Positions 53,631 to 64,000 are shown, counted from the stretch's first letter. The stretch is DNA of 64,000 bases from Desulfobacteraceae bacterium (GCA_003599865.1 QZKS01000047.1:62001-126000); one strand, 5' to 3'. Notes: generated from the sequence alone by a model not told the origin. Program-made: numbers and translations.

Positions 53631-54974
53631 TCAGATCCGGTATCGCTTCAACTTCCGCCACAGAGAGACACGGTCGATTCCGAGAATTTCAGCCGCCTTG
53701 GTCTTGTTATCGTTGACCTGCTGCATGACCCATCCGATATAGTTCCTCTCATTTTCTTCCAGGGTAAGAAACTCCTGTGAACGCCGCGTGACCCTGTCCG
53801 CAAACGACTGCAGGTCAAAAGGCAGATGCCGGACTTCAATGGTTGAATCACCGGCGAGTGTGACGGCACGTTCCATGATGTTCTCAAGCTCCCGCACATT
53901 ACCCGGAAATTCATAAGACAGCAGTATGTCCATCACGGGTTCTGCAATCATCGCCGACTGCTTCCCCTGTGTTTCTGAAATTTTTTTCAAAAAATGCAGA
54001 CTCAGCGCCGGAATGTCATCCCTGCGGTCTGCCAGACGCGGAACGGGAATCGTGATCACATTCAGACGGTAGTAAAGATCTTTCCGGAAATGTCCGTTTT
54101 CCACTTCCTCCTTCAGATCCTTGTTCGTGGCCGCCAGTACCCGGATATCCACAGGAATCTCCTGGGTACCGCCGATGCGGAGCAGACTCCTTTCCTGCAG
54201 GACCCGCAGCAGCTTGACCTGCATGGCCAGGGGCATGTCGCCGATCTCATCCAGCAGGATCGTTCCGCCCTGAATGGACTCCAGCAATCCTTTCTTGATG
54301 CCGCGGGCTCCGGTAAAGGCTTCCCGCTCATGACCAAAGAGCTCATGGGCAAGCAGCTCCTCATTGAAGGCTCCGCAATTGATTGCCAGAAAACGCCGAT
54401 CCGCCCGCGGACTCAGATTGTGAATGGTTCTTGCCACCAGTTCCTTGCCGGTACCGGTTTCTCCCAGAATCAGAATATTGCAGTCTGTGGGCGCGACCTG
54501 ACGGATAACACCCTTCATGGCCTGCATGGACGGGCTGCTTCCAATCAGCAGATGGGTATCTGTTTTTCCGATATCGGCCTGACGACGAAGGTCGGCCACT
54601 TCGCGGCACAGCGACCTTTTCTCCATGGCGCGGCGCATGAGAAACCGTACCTCGTCGATCTGATACGGTTTGGAGATATAATAATAGGCTCCTTTCTGCA
54701 TGGCCTCTACGGCGGAGGAGACCGTTGCATAACCGGTGACGACAATCACTTCCATATCCGCATACAGCTCCTTGGCACGGCTCAGAACTTCCATGCCGTC
54801 CACAGGCTGCATGCGCAGATCGGTCACGACCAGATCAAACTCCCGTTGTTCCAGTTCACGGATTGCCATCATTCCGTTTTCAACCGCCACCACGGTGTGC
54901 CCTTCCCTGCGCAAGACATGCTCCAGGTTTTCGCGGGCAATCTGTTCATCTTCGGCGATCAGTATCAGGGCCAT
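53631..54974 (-). CDS. NtrC-type sigma-54-dependent response regulator
   Basis: A 447-residue enhancer-binding protein. The receiver domain (1-120; acidic AEDE, phospho-acceptor D52 in VTDLRM, VTGYAT, SKP) is followed by an AAA+ domain with Walker A GETGTGKE, Walker B GGTILLDEIGD and the sigma-54 contact loop. That loop reads EAFTGA where the consensus is GAFTGA. A Fis-type helix-turn-helix closes the protein (NKTKAAEILGIDRVSLWRKL). The receiver shares about half of its residues, by eye, with that inserted in Lon. GAAAGGGATG precedes the ATG at 54974. The histidine kinase gene ends 16 bp upstream. It faces the stress operon tail to tail and probably activates it from the dyads upstream. Confidence 0.93.
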   Translation of the reverse strand: MALILIAEDEQIARENLEHVLRREGHTVVAVENGMMAIRELEQREFDLVVTDLRMQPVDGMEVLSRAKELYADMEVIVVTGYATVSSAVEAMQKGAYYYISKPYQIDEVRFLMRRAMEKRSLCREVADLRRQADIGKTDTHLLIGSSPSMQAMKGVIRQVAPTDCNILILGETGTGKELVARTIHNLSPRADRRFLAINCGAFNEELLAHELFGHEREAFTGARGIKKGLLESIQGGTILLDEIGDMPLAMQVKLLRVLQERSLLRIGGTQEIPVDIRVLAATNKDLKEEVENGHFRKDLYYRLNVITIPVPRLADRRDDIPALSLHFLKKISETQGKQSAMIAEPVMDILLSYEFPGNVRELENIMERAVTLAGDSTIEVRHLPFDLQSFADRVTRRSQEFLTLEENERNYIGWVMQQVNDNKTKAAEILGIDRVSLWRKLKRYRI

Positions 54975-54990
54975 GCGAAATTCATCCCTT

Positions 54991-56448
54991 TCAACAAACG
55001 TTCTCAATGGGCAGGTGAATGGTAAAACGGGAACCTTCCCCTTCCCTGCTTTCAACGGATATGGAACCAAAATGCTTCTGGATAATACCGTATACAATGG
55101 AAAGTCCCAGCCCCGTACCGGCTCCGACTTCCTTTGTGGTATAAAAAGGATCGAAAATATGGGGCCGAACTTTTTCCGGAATGCCTTTTCCGGTATCCTC
55201 CACAGTGATAATCACCGAATTTCCGGATAATGACGTTTCGGCGCCGATCCGGATCTCTCCCATGGCGTCTTTCATGGAATGGACGGCATTTTCAATCAGG
55301 TTCAGAAAGACCTGCTGCATCCTCTGGGAATCCATTTTCAGTGTCAGATCCGGCGGTATGTTGTGGACAATCTGAATTCCGGGAGGGATTTGGCTCGATA
55401 TCAGCCTGACGGAACGTTCCACTACCTGACCCAGGAAGATCGGTGTCAGGCAGAATTCCCTTTCCCTTGAAAACTCCAGCAATCCTTTGACGATATCCTT
55501 TGCCCGGTGAACTTCCTGTTCGATATTCCCGAGCATTTTTTCCGTGAACTGTCTATCGGATTCCGTCAGGCTGTTCAGCAGAGGAATCAGTTCCTCGATC
55601 AGAATCTGGCAGGAAGTGGAGATATTGTTCAATGGATTGTTCAACTGATGGGCAATACCGGAAGTCAGCGTGCCCAGGGAGGACAGCTTTTTGGCCTGCA
55701 CCAGTTGATCCTGCCGCTTTTCAAGCTCGGACACCATGCGGTTAAAGGCCTGGATCACCCGCTGGGTTTCGTCACGGGCGCTGGTTACCGGAATCGGTGT
55801 AAAATTTCCCTCTGCAATTCGAAGTGTTGTTTTTTCTATGATTTTCAGCGGTTTTATAATTTTAAAAAGAACAATAGTGCCCAGAAATACATTCAGGGCA
55901 ATGAAGATACCGAGAGCTGTCAACAGATTGGCTTTCAGGTTTTTGATGATCCGCAGAATGGTATCCCGCTCAAAAGATACCAGCTCGCTGGAAAGCGCCA
56001 GCACATTTTTGCCGTGATCGCGCAAATCCTCTTCCACCCGGACAGGATCCAATTGTTTGTTCCAGGCATCCCGGGTCGACAGTAAAATCATAATGCGCTC
56101 GTATTCCAAAAGTTCCCTGCTGATGATATCGAGCAGCGGTTTTACCCTTAAATCCTTCACATCCGGATAGATCCGTTCCAGCACATTCAGGCTCCTCTGG
56201 ATATATTTGCGGTTTTCCTCCAGGTCTTCCGGGGATCCATACAGGAGATAGTTCTTTTCATAGCGCCGTATTTCCAGGATCATATTGCTCAAATCATCGG
56301 CGATGACAACGAAATGCTGCTTCTGTTCGATACGGAGGAGGGAGTTGAATGAAATAGCGGCAATAATCAGCATCACAATGGAGAGCAATAACAATACCAG
56401 AATGACCTTCTGCCGGATGTTCAACGGAAAAACGGATATCCGTTTCAT
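54991..56448 (-). CDS. Membrane-bound sensor histidine kinase
   Basis: A 485-residue sensor kinase. TM1 covers residues 15-38, a helical periplasmic sensor 39-172 (rich in charged, coiled residues), TM2 about 173-197, HAMP about 198-250 (IIKPLKIIEKTTLRIAEGNFTPI). The H-box is SGIAHQLNNPLNNI with His267; N box NLIENAVHSM, G1 DTGKGIP and G2 GTGLGLSIVYGIIQ complete the ATPase. AAGGAGAG lies before the ATG at 56448, in preference to an ATG at 56502. The regulator gene follows 16 bp later. The kinase likely phosphorylates the NtrC-type regulator and, because its receiver is so similar, also the receiver in Lon. A half-site TTATTGCA (56510-56517) of the dyad lies upstream. Confidence 0.92.
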   Translation of the reverse strand: MKRISVFPLNIRQKVILVLLLLSIVMLIIAAISFNSLLRIEQKQHFVVIADDLSNMILEIRRYEKNYLLYGSPEDLEENRKYIQRSLNVLERIYPDVKDLRVKPLLDIISRELLEYERIMILLSTRDAWNKQLDPVRVEEDLRDHGKNVLALSSELVSFERDTILRIIKNLKANLLTALGIFIALNVFLGTIVLFKIIKPLKIIEKTTLRIAEGNFTPIPVTSARDETQRVIQAFNRMVSELEKRQDQLVQAKKLSSLGTLTSGIAHQLNNPLNNISTSCQILIEELIPLLNSLTESDRQFTEKMLGNIEQEVHRAKDIVKGLLEFSREREFCLTPIFLGQVVERSVRLISSQIPPGIQIVHNIPPDLTLKMDSQRMQQVFLNLIENAVHSMKDAMGEIRIGAETSLSGNSVIITVEDTGKGIPEKVRPHIFDPFYTTKEVGAGTGLGLSIVYGIIQKHFGSISVESREGEGSRFTIHLPIENVC

Positions 56449-56612
56449 GATACTCTCCTTGCCTGAAATAATGCCTGCCGCTTCTCTTATGGAAACGAAC
56501 ATACCTTTATTATTGCAGACATATCAAGCTAAATTTCATCCCGGCGATCCGGATATCGATGCCGCAAAACCCACCGGCTGAAAATCGTGCAGGAGCGACC
56601 TTATGCATCTGC

Positions 56613-57186: not shown

Positions 57187-57930
57187 CTATTTAAAAAAGC
57201 GCAGCAATGCATGCAGGTTGGTCATGGGATGGGGCGGACAGCCGGGAATGAACAGATCCACGGGCAACAGGGTGTCCAGCCCCTCGGTGACTTCACCGCT
57301 TCCCCGGAAAGGCCCGCCCGTGATGGCACAGCTTCCGACCGCAATGACAACCTTGGGGGACGGTGTGGCCTCGTAGGTCTGAAGAAGTGCTGTTTTCATG
57401 TTCCGCGAAATGGGGCCGGTGACCACAATCGCGTCCGCATGGCGGGGTGAGGCCACGAAATTGATGCCGAACCTTGCCAGATCGAAAAACGGTGTTGCCA
57501 GTACGTTCAGATCCGCTTCACAGGCATTGCAGCCGGCAGCCGATACCTGACGCAATTGCAGGGAGCGGCCGAACAGCTTCTTGAAATGCTTTTTGGAGTG
57601 CTCGGCAAGGGATGGCAGTGTGCCGTCCGTGATCAGGTGCTTTTTTTCGGAAACGGATATTTCAAAATTGCCGGTAAAGGAAACAAACTTTCCTTTGGAC
57701 AGGCGCTCACAGGTTCCGCAGAAAATGCAGCGCCCCATGTCGATGACCTTTCTGTCCGCATCGATGGCATCCTGGGGACAGGCGGCGGCGCATTGCCGGG
57801 CCAGGTCATCCGGTGCATCCTGATGGATACTGGGCAGCCCCCGGTATCGCGGGAACAATGTAATCTTTTCTTTGGGATAGTTGTTTGTCCGGTACCCCTG
57901 TTCCAATCTGTTGAATAATATTTTCAGCAT
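57187..57930 (-). CDS. ehrS: Ehr complex small subunit (NuoB/HycG-like)
   Basis: A 247-residue soluble subunit. The N-terminal 90 residues form a ferredoxin-like part with CxxxCP (CAAACPQDAI) and CIFCGTC, which looks short of the ligands for two full 4Fe-4S clusters. The rest is the 20-kDa NuoB/hydrogenase small-subunit fold with the proximal cluster ligands in GCNACEADL, GSCAITGG and PGCPPHP. It passes electrons within an energy-converting hydrogenase-related complex. The gene follows the large subunit by 28 bp and precedes a VOC gene. I use the Ehr name because the neighbouring large subunit lacks nickel ligands. Confidence 0.85.
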   Translation of the reverse strand: MLKILFNRLEQGYRTNNYPKEKITLFPRYRGLPSIHQDAPDDLARQCAAACPQDAIDADRKVIDMGRCIFCGTCERLSKGKFVSFTGNFEISVSEKKHLITDGTLPSLAEHSKKHFKKLFGRSLQLRQVSAAGCNACEADLNVLATPFFDLARFGINFVASPRHADAIVVTGPISRNMKTALLQTYEATPSPKVVIAVGSCAITGGPFRGSGEVTEGLDTLLPVDLFIPGCPPHPMTNLHALLRFFK

Positions 57931-57958
57931 CGTGGTTTATCTTCCCATCCATGATTTT

Positions 57959-59473
57959 TTATAGATCAAACCCGCAGTAAGACAGGTTGAAACTTTTGTT
58001 GTTCAAGGGAAAATCGGAAATCCCCGTATTCCGCAAGGCCATGGAAAGACCGTTCCAGTTATGGAAGGAAGGGTCTTTGACCTTGTAGCGCAGAATCCTG
58101 CCGTCGGCATCGGTCAGCAGGCAATGGGAAACTTCCCCCCGCCAGGCTTCATTCAGCGAGACCGCAAAAGCAGATGGTTGCAGCGCGGGCACAGCCGCGG
58201 GAACCTCTTTTGATGCAATCGGTCCGGTCAGCAGGGACAGGATGATATCAATGGATTGAATCACCTCATCCGCGCGGATTTTTGCCCGGGCATACACATC
58301 GCCCGTGTGTTCCGCATGTTCCGGAATATTGAGTTTCCCATACTGTTCGGTGGGAAAAACGCGTCTGACATCATACGGGATACCGCTGGCCCGTCCGGCC
58401 GGTCCCACCAGCCCCAGATATTCCGCATCTGTTTTACCAACCTTTCCGCAGTCTTCAAAACGGGATCGGACACTCGGTGTGGAAATGAGCAGCAGATCAA
58501 TGACATTGATCATCTGGTTTTTCAGTTCGCCCAACCGGTTGATCAGGTTTTTGTTCATCTCCCCGTCGATGGAAAAACGGACACCGCCCGGCCGGACCAG
58601 TCCCTTGCCGAACCGGTTTCCGCAGATGAGAAGCGAAAGGTTCAGGAAATCCCCCCGCATGCGGCCGCAGTAGTTGGCCGGGGGCAGGAAGGCCACATCC
58701 CCGCTCAGCGCGCCCAGATCACCGGTGTGGTTGGCCAGCCGTTCCAGCTCCAGTGCAATGGTCCGGATGATTCCCGCACCCTGATCCGTCTCCATACCGG
58801 CAATCGCTTCCATGGCCTGGGCCATACACAGTGCATGGCCGATGGTGGTGTCTCCGGCGATGTTTTCGGCCAGAATGGGAAGCCGTTTGGGATCAGCCGT
58901 CTGAAGCAGGTTTTCCACGCCCCGGTGCTGGTATCCCAGCTGGATCTCCAGGTTCAACACCCGCTCGCCGATGCAGTTGAACCGGAAATGCCCGGGCTCG
59001 ATCACCCCTGCATGTACCGGTCCTACCGCGACTTCATGGATCTCTTCCCCTTGGACGGAGTAGTAATCATAGTTTCCGGGAATATCTTTTGTGTAATCGT
59101 TTCCGAACACATCCGGCCGGTCCTGGCAGTTGGGATGATACCGCACCATTCGGAGCCAGGGGTGTCCCTCGGGCCGGATACCATACTGCTCGGCGATCTC
59201 CCGTTCAAACATATGAAACGGCTCGCATTCCCGGCTCATGGAAGGATAGGATTCCGGGGCCTTGCATCCTGCCACATGAAGAAGGTGATCGGTGCGAAGG
59301 ACGGCCATCAGCCGGATGGCCTTGTTCTCTTCGTATGCAAAAAAGTGGACGACCTTGCCCTTGTTTTTGACGATTTCCATGGCCTGCTTCCGGAACTCAT
59401 CAAAAGACAGATCCGGAATCCTGTTGCGATCCACCGGCCGGCTGTGTCTGATCTGCAAAAAACCTGTTTTCAT
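57959..59473 (-). CDS. ehrL: Ehr complex large subunit without Ni-Fe site (NuoCD/HycE-like)
   Basis: A 504-residue fusion of a NuoC-like N-terminus (about 1-150; GHPWLRMVRYHPN) and a NuoD/hydrogenase-large-subunit core. In [NiFe] hydrogenases four cysteines (RxCGxC and DPCxxC) hold the metal. Here the first pair reads ENIAGDTT, so both are lost, and the last motif reads NLSYCGFDL, so only one Cys remains. It cannot hold a normal Ni-Fe centre and therefore belongs to the Ehr type, which links unknown redox chemistry to ion pumping. The ATG overlaps the preceding stop codon (TAATG), showing tight coupling. Confidence 0.9.
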   Translation of the reverse strand: MKTGFLQIRHSRPVDRNRIPDLSFDEFRKQAMEIVKNKGKVVHFFAYEENKAIRLMAVLRTDHLLHVAGCKAPESYPSMSRECEPFHMFEREIAEQYGIRPEGHPWLRMVRYHPNCQDRPDVFGNDYTKDIPGNYDYYSVQGEEIHEVAVGPVHAGVIEPGHFRFNCIGERVLNLEIQLGYQHRGVENLLQTADPKRLPILAENIAGDTTIGHALCMAQAMEAIAGMETDQGAGIIRTIALELERLANHTGDLGALSGDVAFLPPANYCGRMRGDFLNLSLLICGNRFGKGLVRPGGVRFSIDGEMNKNLINRLGELKNQMINVIDLLLISTPSVRSRFEDCGKVGKTDAEYLGLVGPAGRASGIPYDVRRVFPTEQYGKLNIPEHAEHTGDVYARAKIRADEVIQSIDIILSLLTGPIASKEVPAAVPALQPSAFAVSLNEAWRGEVSHCLLTDADGRILRYKVKDPSFHNWNGLSMALRNTGISDFPLNNKSFNLSYCGFDL

Positions 59474-60894
59474 TAAAATCCCCCGCCCATGAAAAATACG
59501 GCCTTGTTGATGGTCTGGTATAGGGTATCCGGAATCCAGATGCACAGCACCAGAGAAGTGAGAAGCAGTATATACTGGGGCCAGACCATGGATAATTTTT
59601 CATCCATCTGCGCCGTTACATTTGTGTCCTGAAATGAAATCTTCATGACGTGGTTGGCAAAACCGGCAAAGATGACGCACAGACTCAGGATAAAAAAACC
59701 GGCTCCCACATACTGGGCGCTGCGGAAGGCACCGATGATGATCAGGAGTTCCCCGATAAAGATGCCGAACGGCGGGAATCCGGAAATACCGGCAAATCCG
59801 CCGAAAAAGGCCACAAAGGTTTTGGGCATCACCCTGACCAGCCCCCCGGTTTTTTCGATCAGACGGGTTCCATACCCCAGCAGGATATTTCCGGAGGTTA
59901 AAAACAGAGAAGACTTGATCAGGCTGTGATGGATGAGACAGATCATGGCTCCGTAAGCGGCCAGCCCCCCGACACCGGTTCCAAAGGCAATGATCCCCAT
60001 GTTTTCAATGCTGGAATAGGCCAGAAGCCGCTTGTATTCCGTCTGTTTGAGTATAAAGGTCGCGGCAGCCAGAATGGAGGCGATACCAAACACCATCAGG
60101 ATGGTTCCGGAAAAGGTACCAAGACCGGCGGCACACATGATTTTATTGGTCTTGAATATGCCGAGGTAGGCGCAGTTGAGCAGCACGCCGGACAAAAGGG
60201 CCGAGGCCGGGCTGGGCGCTTCACTGTGCGCATCGGGAAGCCATGTGTGCATGGGCGCCAGACCCATTTTGGTGCCGTATCCCACGAGTATGAAGACAAA
60301 GCCGGCCTTGAGCCACTTGGGATCAAGCTGTCCTGCGGCATTGGTTAACGCGGAAAAAGAAACCTCCGCATCCACCTTTCCGATATCCATGGCAACGCTG
60401 ATCAGCACCGATCCCAGCAGCGCAAGGGCAATGCCCACCGAACAGATCAGCACATATTTCCAGGTGGCCTCGAGGGACGCCTTGGACCGATGGGTATAGA
60501 TCAAAGGAGCACTGGCCAGGGTGGTGGCTTCGATGGCAATCCACATCACCATGATATGATCGGACAGGGTCACCATGGTCATGGTGGACAGAAACAGCAG
60601 CATGAAACCGGTAAAGATTTTTTCCGACCGGATTTTTGCTGCGGCAAGATAGCCGGTTGTATAAATGGAAATCAGGAAGAACAGAAGGGATATCACCAGC
60701 AAAGACAGAAGGCCCTCCGGCGTCACGGCAAAATAGTCGCTGAATATCGGTTCCGGCCGGTTCATCCACAGCAGAACCGACAGAAACAGATGCAGGGCAC
60801 CGGTGATCACCAATAAAGGCCGACCGGCTGAAGGATTCAGGAAAAATGCCATGATGCCGGTCAAAAACGGAATGACAAAAAGGATCTCAACCAT
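59473..60894 (-). CDS. ehrD: Ehr complex antiporter-like subunit (HyfF/NuoN-type)
   Basis: A 473-residue membrane protein with about 14 transmembrane helices of the Mrp/complex I antiporter type. Conserved features are the Glu in MWIAIEATTLASAPLIYTH, the Lys-rich KASLEATWKYV, and the Lys in VGYGTKMGLAPMHTWLPDAHSEAPSPASALLSG (all as in NuoN/HyfF). It should carry the ion translocation channel. Stop and next start overlap as TAATG. It begins 11 bp after the HyfE-like gene and shows high similarity in layout to the antiporter at the window edge. Confidence 0.9.
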   Translation of the reverse strand: MVEILFVIPFLTGIMAFFLNPSAGRPLLVITGALHLFLSVLLWMNRPEPIFSDYFAVTPEGLLSLLVISLLFFLISIYTTGYLAAAKIRSEKIFTGFMLLFLSTMTMVTLSDHIMVMWIAIEATTLASAPLIYTHRSKASLEATWKYVLICSVGIALALLGSVLISVAMDIGKVDAEVSFSALTNAAGQLDPKWLKAGFVFILVGYGTKMGLAPMHTWLPDAHSEAPSPASALLSGVLLNCAYLGIFKTNKIMCAAGLGTFSGTILMVFGIASILAAATFILKQTEYKRLLAYSSIENMGIIAFGTGVGGLAAYGAMICLIHHSLIKSSLFLTSGNILLGYGTRLIEKTGGLVRVMPKTFVAFFGGFAGISGFPPFGIFIGELLIIIGAFRSAQYVGAGFFILSLCVIFAGFANHVMKISFQDTNVTAQMDEKLSMVWPQYILLLTSLVLCIWIPDTLYQTINKAVFFMGGGF

Positions 60895-60905
60895 GAACGA
60901 GCCAC

Positions 60906-61544
60906 CTATTCCTTTAGGGTTCTGAGATGCGCGGTATCCACATCGTCAAATGTCTGTTTGATATTCTGCAGGATAATGGCCATGATCATGACCCCTGCCA
61001 GAACATCCAGCAGGATCCCGAATTCAACAATATGATGGGCCCGGACGGAAAAGGTCGTGCCCACCAGATAGATGCCGTTTTCCATCATGATATAGCCGAG
61101 AACCATGGCAATGGCGTTCCGCCGGGTCATCAGCAGGAAGATACCGGTTATTAACAGTGTTATGGCCGAGGGCAGCAATAAGGGATGGGTGCTGGATGGT
61201 ATATTAAATTTATGGCTCCCGTAGGTTGCCGCCACAATCAGCACCAGACCGGCCAGCAAGGAAGCATGATATCCGATAATGGGTTCCACTTCACGGCGGA
61301 TGGCAACCTTTTTAATCACCAGATAAATGGACAAAGGGATGATCACTCCCCGGATGATCATGGTGGTCAGGGTAAAGGAAACGCCGCCGGATGTCATTTC
61401 ATGGCCGATGAAAAGGGGAACGAGCGAAACCGCCACCCCCTGAAAGGCCAGCACCTTGATCAGACCCGGCAGGCGGCTGGAAGCAAACGAAAATAAAGCC
61501 GACAGAATGACAAGGGATAAAGCAGTGTCAATGGGATGAATCAT
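60906..61544 (-). CDS. ehrC: Ehr complex HyfE/NuoK-like membrane subunit
   Basis: A 212-residue protein with about six hydrophobic helices, of the HyfE type (ILSALFSFASSRLPGLIKVLAFQGVAVSLVPLFIG; the last part is related to NuoK/MrpC). It probably forms part of the ion-translocating arm between the NuoH-like and antiporter-like subunits. The start overlaps the stop codon of the NuoH-like gene (ATGA), so the genes are coupled. Confidence 0.85.
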   Translation of the reverse strand: MIHPIDTALSLVILSALFSFASSRLPGLIKVLAFQGVAVSLVPLFIGHEMTSGGVSFTLTTMIIRGVIIPLSIYLVIKKVAIRREVEPIIGYHASLLAGLVLIVAATYGSHKFNIPSSTHPLLLPSAITLLITGIFLLMTRRNAIAMVLGYIMMENGIYLVGTTFSVRAHHIVEFGILLDVLAGVMIMAIILQNIKQTFDDVDTAHLRTLKE

Positions 61545-62461
61545 TGGATAAACTCCAGGGTGATAATGGCCGCAAAAAAGGCCAGGGCAAAAGACGTTAA
61601 AATGAATTTCGGCACCAGATCCATGCGATACCGCGCCATGACCGATTCCGTAACACCGACAACCTTGTATATGATCAAAAGGGAAAGCCAGAACAGACCG
61701 AAACCGGCGATGGGGGAGCCGAGATCAAAGGGAAACACCAGCCCGGCAACCATGGTTGCGTAAAAGAACAGTTTATAAAAAGCTCCGAGTTCGATGAGCG
61801 CAAAATCCGGCCCGCTGTGATCCAGCACCATGACCTCATGGATCATGGTCAGCTCCAGGTGAGTGGCCGGATCATCCACCGGCACCCTGGCATTTTCAGT
61901 CAGAAGGACAATGAAAAGGGCAATGATCACAAAGACCATCTGCGGTCCGGCGGCATGCCAGATTTCCATGGGGCTGCTTCCGGCAAAATAGGCGGACAGG
62001 CTCAGGCTGCCGGTGAGCTTGACAAACAGAACCAGGATCATGAACATGGTGGCTTCACAGATGATCGGGAAATAAGCTTCCCGGGCCGCTCCCATGCCTT
62101 CAAAAGGGGAAGCCGTATCCATGGCCGCGGCAATGGTGAAAAAACGCCCCAGCCCCAGAAGGTAGAGAACGAAAATCACATCCCCGTTAAAGGAAAGAAG
62201 GGGCTGTCTCCCGGCGATGGGCAGAAACATCAGGGCAATGACGGCAGCACACAGGGAAACCACCGGACCAAGCTTGAAAACGACCGTGGTGCTGGTGCTG
62301 TATACGGATCCTTTTTGAAACAGCTTGATCAGGGTATAGTAATTGATCAGAACCGGCGGTCCTTTTTTCCCGCCGAAAAACGCCTTGACCTTGAGGATCA
62401 CCCCGGAAAAAAACGGAGCCAGAAGAATTGCCATGATCCAGAGAATAAAAGATTCCATCAT
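61541..62461 (-). CDS. ehrB: Ehr complex NuoH/HyfC-like membrane subunit
   Basis: A 306-residue membrane protein with eight helices, homologous to NuoH, HycD and HyfC. Conserved stretches are the Q-site-like loop (KGPPVLINYYTLIKLFQKGSVYSTST), PFEGMGAAREAYFPIICEATMFMIL and ENARVPVDDPATHLELTMIHEVMVLDHSGPD, including the run of acidic residues that couples electron transfer to ion movement. It joins the soluble arm to the antiporters. Two Met codons stand side by side at the start (62461 or 62458). The antiporter gene ends 70 bp upstream on the same strand. Confidence 0.9.
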   Translation of the reverse strand: MMESFILWIMAILLAPFFSGVILKVKAFFGGKKGPPVLINYYTLIKLFQKGSVYSTSTTVVFKLGPVVSLCAAVIALMFLPIAGRQPLLSFNGDVIFVLYLLGLGRFFTIAAAMDTASPFEGMGAAREAYFPIICEATMFMILVLFVKLTGSLSLSAYFAGSSPMEIWHAAGPQMVFVIIALFIVLLTENARVPVDDPATHLELTMIHEVMVLDHSGPDFALIELGAFYKLFFYATMVAGLVFPFDLGSPIAGFGLFWLSLLIIYKVVGVTESVMARYRMDLVPKFILTSFALAFFAAIITLEFIQ

Positions 62462-62531
62462 CGTTTTCTCGTCTCATTTAAAAGTGACGCCGAATGCCGG
62501 CAGCATCCTTTGAAGGCCGCCGGAAGCGGTT

Positions 62532-64000
62532 CTAAACAAAAAACAGCAGTACAATAATCGCCAGCAGGATATAGCCGATATACAGATGGATATCCCCGTG
62601 CTGGATCCAGTGAAGCCGCTCAAATAAAAACAGTATCGGCCGGATAATCAGATTCCCCATATGAAGCTCGGCAATATCATGGATACTGCTGCGATAATGG
62701 GTCTTCTGGGGAAACCGTCCCCGGATCAGCGGATGATCTTCAAGTCTCGGTGCCACCGGCCGGAAGAAATCAAGAATGGAAGCCGCATAGGAAGAACCGG
62801 TATACTGCATTTTCACGGTCGGCTGGGTAAAACCGCACCCCCATGTTCCGGAACGGGAAACCGGCTTGTTCCGGTACAAAAAGGTCCGCAGGGCCAGAAC
62901 CAGAAAGAGAACGGCAAGGAAAAGCATGGCTGCCCGGGTGATGTTGCCGGTCATCTCCATAAACGGTTCCAGGGGAATCCGTCCATATCCCAGCTCCAGC
63001 GACGAGACCGCTTTAACGGCGCTCCGGATAAACACCTGGGGAAATACGCCGATCAGGATACAGAAAGCCGCCGGCACCAGCATGGAAATCAGCATGGTCG
63101 GTCCTTTTTCATCCCGGCCCACGGCTGCCGGACTTCTGGGTTCCCCCTGAAAAACAATGCCGACCACCCGTGAAAAACAGGCCAGGGACAACCCGCCGAT
63201 AACCGCCAGACTGACAATGCCCAGCAGGCTGAGCGCAAACGATGTTTTCTCCAGTGATACCCCTTTGAATCCGCCAAGGTAAATCAGAAACTCGCCGACA
63301 AAGCCGTTAAACGGCGGAAGCCCGCATATGGCCAGTGACCCGATCAGAAAGGTAGCTCCGCTGATTTTCATGTTCTTGAAAAGCCCGCCGAGTGCTTCAA
63401 TGGACCGGGTCCCGGTTTTTTGAAGGACGATTCCGGCGCCCAGGAACAACAGGGATTTGAATAGGGAATGATTCATCACATGGAGCAGCCCTCCGGCAAA
63501 CCCGAGGACCGCCATCACGGGCTGGTTGGAGGATACCCCGATCATGCCGATCCCGATTCCGATCAGGATAATGCCTATATTTTCAACGCTGGAATAGGCC
63601 AGCAATCGTTTCAGGTCGGACTGGCCAAGGGCGTACACGACACCCAGTATTCCGGAAACCATCCCGGCAATCAGCACCATCTCACCGAAAAGCGGTGTAT
63701 GGAAATGAAGTATGGAATAGATCCGGAGGATACCATATACACCGACCTTGATCATGACGCCGGACATGACGGCGGAAATATGGCTCGGAGCTGCCGGATG
63801 GGCATGGGGCAGCCAGACATGAAACGGGAACACACCGGCTTTGGAACCAAACCCGATGAATGCAAAGATGAATATCAGGATTTTTCCGGTATCGGTAATG
63901 GACCCGGCACCCGCAAACCCGAAACTTCCGGTATAGCCGTAGAGAATGCCGAATGCGGTAAGGATCGACATGGCCCCGATGTGGGAAAACACCAGGTACA
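62532..64000 (-). CDS. ehrA: Ehr complex antiporter-like subunit (HyfB/NuoL-type), N-terminus outside window
   Basis: At least 489 residues of a large antiporter-like membrane protein; the frame stays open to the window edge, so the N-terminus is missing. Helices with the Lys/His pattern KAGVFPFHVWLPHAHPAAPSHISAVMSGVMIKVG (NuoL/HyfB), an alternating SVENIGIILIGIG and NHSLFKSLLFLGAG motif with conserved Lys and His are present, and a long amphipathic C-terminal part of about 100 residues before a last helix. It starts the operon that runs down to the VOC gene. Confidence 0.9.
   Translation of the reverse strand, partial: YLVFSHIGAMSILTAFGILYGYTGSFGFAGAGSITDTGKILIFIFAFIGFGSKAGVFPFHVWLPHAHPAAPSHISAVMSGVMIKVGVYGILRIYSILHFHTPLFGEMVLIAGMVSGILGVVYALGQSDLKRLLAYSSVENIGIILIGIGIGMIGVSSNQPVMAVLGFAGGLLHVMNHSLFKSLLFLGAGIVLQKTGTRSIEALGGLFKNMKISGATFLIGSLAICGLPPFNGFVGEFLIYLGGFKGVSLEKTSFALSLLGIVSLAVIGGLSLACFSRVVGIVFQGEPRSPAAVGRDEKGPTMLISMLVPAAFCILIGVFPQVFIRSAVKAVSSLELGYGRIPLEPFMEMTGNITRAAMLFLAVLFLVLALRTFLYRNKPVSRSGTWGCGFTQPTVKMQYTGSSYAASILDFFRPVAPRLEDHPLIRGRFPQKTHYRSSIHDIAELHMGNLIIRPILFLFERLHWIQHGDIHLYIGYILLAIIVLLFFV

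Follow-up and report, generated by a model that had tools for sequence, protein, structure and literature searches.

An energy-converting-hydrogenase-related (Ehr) operon of a Desulfobacteraceae bacterium has lost all nickel ligands and probably encodes a redox-driven ion pump with a shortened iron-sulfur wire

At the right end of a 64,000-nt stretch of DNA from a Desulfobacteraceae bacterium (GCA_003599865.1; positions 62001-126000 of the 152,557-base contig QZKS01000047.1; hereafter the window, whose numbering is used for all coordinates), six genes on the minus strand (57187-64523, with the final 523 bases outside the window) form an operon of the energy-converting-hydrogenase-related (Ehr) family, a known family that descends from hydrogenases. 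The operon consists of HyfB, NuoH/HyfC, HyfE, HyfF, a NuoC-NuoD fusion (EhrL) and a ferredoxin-NuoB fusion (EhrS), and domain matches and reading of the open reading frames (ORFs) bore out the gene set, order and strand of an initial annotation made from the sequence (Table 1). We read the complex not as a hydrogenase but as a redox-driven ion pump that would be fed by a soluble low-potential donor and would reduce a small acceptor in the emptied Ni-Fe pocket, and give this reading a probability of roughly 0.6; that Ehr is a redox pump as such appears highly probable.

EhrL (residue numbers refer to its 528-aa ORF) was aligned to HycE of the E. coli formate hydrogenlyase (FHL), gap-free over the L1 region, and to the true [NiFe] large subunits L022, L023 and L062_18, which carry RVCGIC and DPCxSC. 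The motifs RxCGxC and DPCxxC that hold the metal in group 4 [NiFe] hydrogenases are absent from EhrL, none of the four Ni-ligand columns (A230, T233, S522, G525) is Cys, and the protein ends eight residues past N520, directly after L2, without a C-terminal maturation extension. The initial annotation had placed both altered motifs at the right positions and had counted three of the four cysteines as lost; by this alignment all four are gone, and the cysteine taken as retained, C524, lies outside the ligand columns, at the x position one residue before ligand 4 (Ser in L062_18). The C524 column is Cys in 90 of 105 large subunits and Ser or Ala in the other 15, with Ala (SYAG) in the true Ehr members L083, L093 and L108 and Ser (SYSG) in L100 and L124 as well as in the type 2 Ehr proteins described below. 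A second frequent cysteine, C191, is also Cys in 90/105 and is Ala in type 2. A sequencing error that hides Cys codons is excluded, because about 100 homologues from many phyla, at 45 to 81% identity, carry the same motifs. In one Kiritimatiellae EhrL (L061_11), which reads LCGDTTIGH, the first Ni-ligand column is Cys and the other three ligands are lost.

With a 15-sequence alignment as query, at least 577 Ehr stretches were confirmed in one-genome-per-species data. Hosts among the matches listed include Desulfobacterota, Planctomycetota, Verrucomicrobiota, Omnitrophota, Kiritimatiellae, Synergistaceae and others, and the order HyfB-NuoH-HyfE-HyfF-EhrL-EhrS is conserved over many phyla. In a FastTree tree, 102 Ehr proteins, Geobacteraceae included, form one clade with support 1.0, outside which fall the Ni-Fe hydrogenases L022, L023 and L062_18 and NuoD. 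Comparison with ehr clusters thus upholds the Ehr-type assignment by gene order, missing Ni ligands and phylogeny alike, and the statement that came with it, that the electron donor and acceptor of Ehr have not been established, matches the literature (PMC10284858, PMC6349859, PMC7894505). Within the Ehr clade, type 2 is a small group of seven sequences with the motifs SGDS/T and SYSG, and type 1 (support 0.84) comprises the clade of the window protein (the window clade; 33 sequences, support 1.0), mainly of sulfate reducers and their kin with cable bacteria included, and a larger clade that holds Geobacteraceae. The nearest named relative is an assembly labelled Desulfocicer vacuolatum (80%; L035). 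At L115, L116 and L119, type 1 and divergent type 2 operons lie about 8-15 kb apart in the same genome.

A normal NuoI/HycF domain has eight cysteines and binds two clusters. The ferredoxin domain of EhrS has C47, C51, C68, C71 and C74 only, which suffices for one [4Fe-4S] cluster and not for two, and its NuoB/MbhJ-like domain carries the four cysteines of the proximal cluster (C134, C137, C201 and C231) with hydrogenase-type CxxC spacing. By the ligand pattern usual for domains of this kind, as in complex I, C51 with C68, C71 and C74 would form the N6b-type cluster adjoining N2, and the outer N6a-type cluster would be unable to form. The one-cluster domain occurs in all 31 readable small subunits of the window clade (a few genomes are counted twice), most small subunits of the sister clade keep both ferredoxin-domain clusters, and motif 1 was lost independently in L020 and L102. 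In the Omnitrophota proteins L083:4675-5352 and L093:3289-3966 the cluster-binding loop is deleted and every ferredoxin-domain ligand is gone with the proximal cysteines kept, and only the proximal cluster is predicted to form there. The short ferredoxin motifs seen in the initial annotation are therefore real, with five cysteines for one cluster, and they are a better clue than the supposedly retained cysteine of EhrL since they mark the clade-wide loss of one Fe-S cluster. As far as the openly accessible Ehr literature shows, older subscription papers aside, this one-cluster EhrS clade is new. The third cysteine of the degenerate motif 1, C47 (57790-57792), is kept in all members of the window clade, its cluster partners being gone.

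The ratio of non-synonymous to synonymous substitution rates (dN/dS) is 0.08-0.14 at dS of 1.0-1.6, a high dS that makes the ratio approximate; the key Glu and Lys residues of energy-converting antiporter subunits are present, with HyfB E150, K228, K259 and K356 identical in 70/70 homologues, HyfF K209 and K327 in 65/65 and E122 in 63/65, and E155, E174 and D180 conserved in HyfE; and in the pocket protein E183, R469 and D392 are identical in all 105 large subunits. Because dN/dS is near 0.1 and the pump and pocket residues do not vary, these sequence comparisons argue for a working machine under purifying selection. A dead or decaying hydrogenase relic, as might be read from the loss of every Ni ligand and the repeated loss of clusters within the family, and as the Ehr of G. 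sulfurreducens KN400 was called nonfunctional in a 2026 paper (PMC13194489), is very unlikely given this constraint across many phyla, the six-gene operon intact in many of them, and the detection by proteomics of the Geobacter subunits, which in G. sulfurreducens are higher on formate (PMC7894505). An active site with an unusual Ni-Fe or other metal centre on C524 and C191 is hardly credible: both cysteines are present in 90/105 sequences, but there are members with C191 and A524 or S524, the type 2 proteins have A191 with S524, no ligand column of EhrL holds Cys and the maturation tail is missing. The alignment and the members without these cysteines led us to reject both a retained Ni ligand and a C191/C524 site, and since the two residues are dispensable across the family there is no strong case for a metal site of another kind; the argument from a retained Cys to a novel redox partner fails with it, the column being replaceable by Ala or Ser.

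Two further readings would name the substrate. A soluble formate dehydrogenase could feed EhrS, as FdhF does for FHL, which has been suggested for Margulis- and Saganbacteria (PMC6349859) and would suit the greater abundance of G. sulfurreducens Ehr on formate (PMC7894505), the several formate dehydrogenases of the window genome and the position of HycE as the closest solved relative of EhrL. This formate link is nevertheless unlikely, as the operon has neither an adjoining formate dehydrogenase gene nor a HycB-like linker gene, and 13 of the 49 Ehr-positive genomes tested outside Desulfobacterota have no match to the formate dehydrogenase alpha subunit type (genome-wide absence was tested for named families, and many of the 49 are drafts in which a single absence is weak evidence). 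A polysulfide or disulfide reductase like Pyrococcus MBS, with catalysis at the proximal cluster, would explain how hosts without quinones use the complex; it shares the architecture, the loss of Ni-Fe and the absence of canonical quinone ligands (PMC7684303), and the hosts of the window clade are sulfur-cycle bacteria. We consider it distinctly improbable, however, because EhrS has C134xxC137, C201 and C231 at hydrogenase spacing rather than a three-Cys proximal cluster, E183, missing in MBS, is invariant in Ehr, and sulfur respiration is not known for many Ehr hosts.

For the redox-driven pump that we prefer, the donor, acceptor, direction and ion that we infer are as follows. A soluble low-potential donor would dock on the ferredoxin domain of EhrS; reduced ferredoxin is the most likely one, and has about an even chance of being correct. 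Electrons would then cross a two-[4Fe-4S] wire, equivalent to N6b and N2 of complex I, to reach the former Ni-Fe cavity, now empty, which is bordered by EhrL, by the NuoB-like domain and by the NuoH-like subunit; there a small diffusible acceptor would be reduced and protonated, likely with E183 (in the place of MbhL E21) as proton donor, and this chemistry would drive ion translocation via HyfB, HyfE and HyfF. In the window organism menaquinone may be the likeliest acceptor, a tentative choice made because UbiA homologues are present and there is no second NuoD-like gene, the single 49-kDa-type gene being EhrL; UbiA-family matches alone are no proof of menaquinone synthesis. UbiA is present in all 39 Ehr-positive Desulfobacterota genomes of at least 90% completeness, and a different acceptor must serve in some other Ehr hosts. 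RnfC is present in the window genome; Rnf was considered as a correlated partner and rejected, as genomes of the order give strong RnfC matches whether or not they have Ehr, with no clear association.

Several observations weigh against the pump as drawn here. The ligands of the quinone head group in complex I, Nqo4 H38 and Y87 as given in PMC7684303, have no counterpart in EhrL, whose first loop is hydrogenase-type and whose Y87 column is Ala or Cys. What points to ferredoxin as donor is solely the type of domain, and the Omnitrophota proteins L083 and L093, having no ferredoxin-domain ligands, indicate that electron entry through that domain is not obligatory family-wide. Among the 49 genomes outside the phylum, 17 lack both MqnA/D-type proteins and MenD, and five Ehr-positive genomes (G358, G376, G378, G379 and G411) have no UbiA, because of which a quinone is not the family-wide acceptor; neither quinone nor formate looks like a universal Ehr partner. 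In a single-chain structure prediction of EhrL the fold is clear, with HycE as the best structural match, and the predicted local distance difference test (pLDDT) score falls below 50 in the loops of the pocket (residues 174-185 and 508-528).

A bolder reading holds that the acceptor is neither protons nor polysulfide nor a complex-I-type quinone but a soluble or membrane carrier yet to be described, present even in quinone-free bacteria, and that in parts of the family the wire is being shortened stepwise, from three clusters to two in the window clade and to one in Omnitrophota, because the donor delivers ever closer to the pocket. This reading, by which Ehr would be a distinct class of redox pump, is improbable in our view. 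Standing between hydrogenases and complex I, Ehr is spread over many phyla and its substrate has not been established. The above analyses do away with the supposed leftover Ni ligand, show a machine under selection, make the acceptor question testable, as any proposed acceptor must occur in Ehr hosts without UbiA, and offer the clade with the shortened wire as a natural comparison for the site of electron entry.

Table 1 Features of the Ehr operon in window coordinates
Feature	Position	Strand	Remarks
HyfB-like antiporter subunit	62532-64523, in window to 64000	-	663 aa; Proton_antipo_M, best match hydrogenase-4 subunit B
NuoH/HyfC/HycD-like membrane anchor subunit	61541-62461	-	PF00146
HyfE-like (NuoK-type) membrane subunit	60906-61544	-	NF008556, PF00420
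HyfF-like antiporter subunit	59473-60894	-	PF00361, hydrogenase-4 subunit F
EhrL, NuoC (30 kDa) + NuoD/hydrogenase-large fusion	57959-59545	-	PF00346, PF00329; 528-aa ORF
Former L1 motif ENIAGDTTIGH, replaces ERVCGICxxxH	58835-58867	-	ligand columns A230, T233
Former L2 motif NLSYCGFDL-stop, replaces DPCxxCxxR	57959-57988	-	ligand columns S522, G525; C524 off-register
EhrS, N-terminal HycF/NuoI-like ferredoxin domain fused to NuoB/MbhJ-like domain	57187-57930	-	

The complete HyfB ORF was taken from the flanking contig sequence, and EhrL likely starts at the ATG at 59473 (M25), which touches the HyfF stop. The genes past HyfB, upstream of the window, where the initial annotation had suggested looking for a redox partner, encode a protein with a CBS domain and a transporter of SLC13 type, both oriented away from the operon; a redox-partner gene was found neither beside the operon in the window nor further along the contig, and none recurs across the 80 Ehr loci surveyed for neighbours. 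NuoEFG is likewise absent from the operon and the flanking 15 kb, the rest of the genome not having been searched for it, and no dedicated dehydrogenase gene lies next to the operon. Downstream on the same strand follow a gene for a glyoxalase-type protein and, at 53631-56502, a histidine kinase with a sigma-54-type response regulator; in L051, L052 and L053 a pair of this kind stands ahead of Ehr, with response regulators 37-38% identical. Upstream of HyfB a sigma-54 promoter was sought and not found, and sigma-70-like and terminator-like matches there did not exceed chance level. The Rfam search gave no match and the plasmid search nothing relevant.

The only recurrent neighbours in the 80 loci are a regulator with phosphotransferase system (PTS) EIIA and helix-turn-helix (HTH) domains, sigma-54-type regulators and an LCIB-like protein. 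The HTH + PTS EIIA-2 protein stands upstream of HyfB in 28 of the 80 loci, outside the window clade (e.g., L081:4213-4932), and suggests phosphotransferase-linked control of Ehr. A protein with a weak match to LCIB-type carbonic anhydrases (PF18599, just under the cut-off) is encoded at L044:12648-13829; such a gene adjoins the Ehr operon upstream or downstream in several genomes of Desulfobulbales type (L044, L046, L047 and L052), lies nearby in L039, and was not found in the window genome. It brings to mind NDH-1MS, the CO2-hydrating complex-I-like system of cyanobacteria, as a lead only.

Among known systems, respiratory complex I (Nqo/Nuo) shares with Ehr the NuoB, C, D, H, I, K and L/M/N-type parts and the complete lack of Ni ligands, whereas the Ehr operon has no NuoEFG, and EhrL, besides its hydrogenase-type loop and altered Y87 column, has Glu in place of the quinone His; the C-C-type N2 motif is also absent. 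Pyrococcus MBS (6u8y) has, like Ehr, lost Ni-Fe and has no complex-I quinone ligands, and it has no E21-type Glu; it retains two Ni-ligand cysteines and catalyses at a three-Cys proximal cluster through the Fe without a Cys ligand (PMC7684303), in contrast to the four-Cys proximal cluster and the absence of any Ni-ligand Cys in Ehr. Pyrococcus MBH (6cfw) provides, with MbhJ, the best match of the EhrS C-terminal domain, and the proton-transfer Glu E21 of MbhL corresponds to EhrL E183, but MBH has a Ni-Fe site and a different set of small antiporter subunits. The E. coli FHL/hydrogenase-4 type (7z0s) is the best solved relative of EhrL by sequence and fold, and of the NuoH-like and HyfB-like subunits as well (HycD, 7z0s_D, being closest to the NuoH-like subunit and 6cfw_M second); its HycE bears the Ni-Fe site and its HycF both ferredoxin clusters, unlike EhrL, with neither Ni ligand nor maturation tail. 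The Ehr of Geobacter sulfurreducens (GSU0739-0745) and relatives has the same six core subunits in the same order and no Ni-Fe ligands. The Geobacteraceae EhrL proteins (L090, L092, L098, L109 and L111) are about 45-48% identical to the window EhrL and belong to the sister clade, in which many loci have the PTS-EIIA/HTH gene upstream; L092 and L107 have a second HyfB-like gene and EhrS is two-cluster in L092 and L111, whereas the window clade has one HyfB and one ferredoxin-domain cluster.

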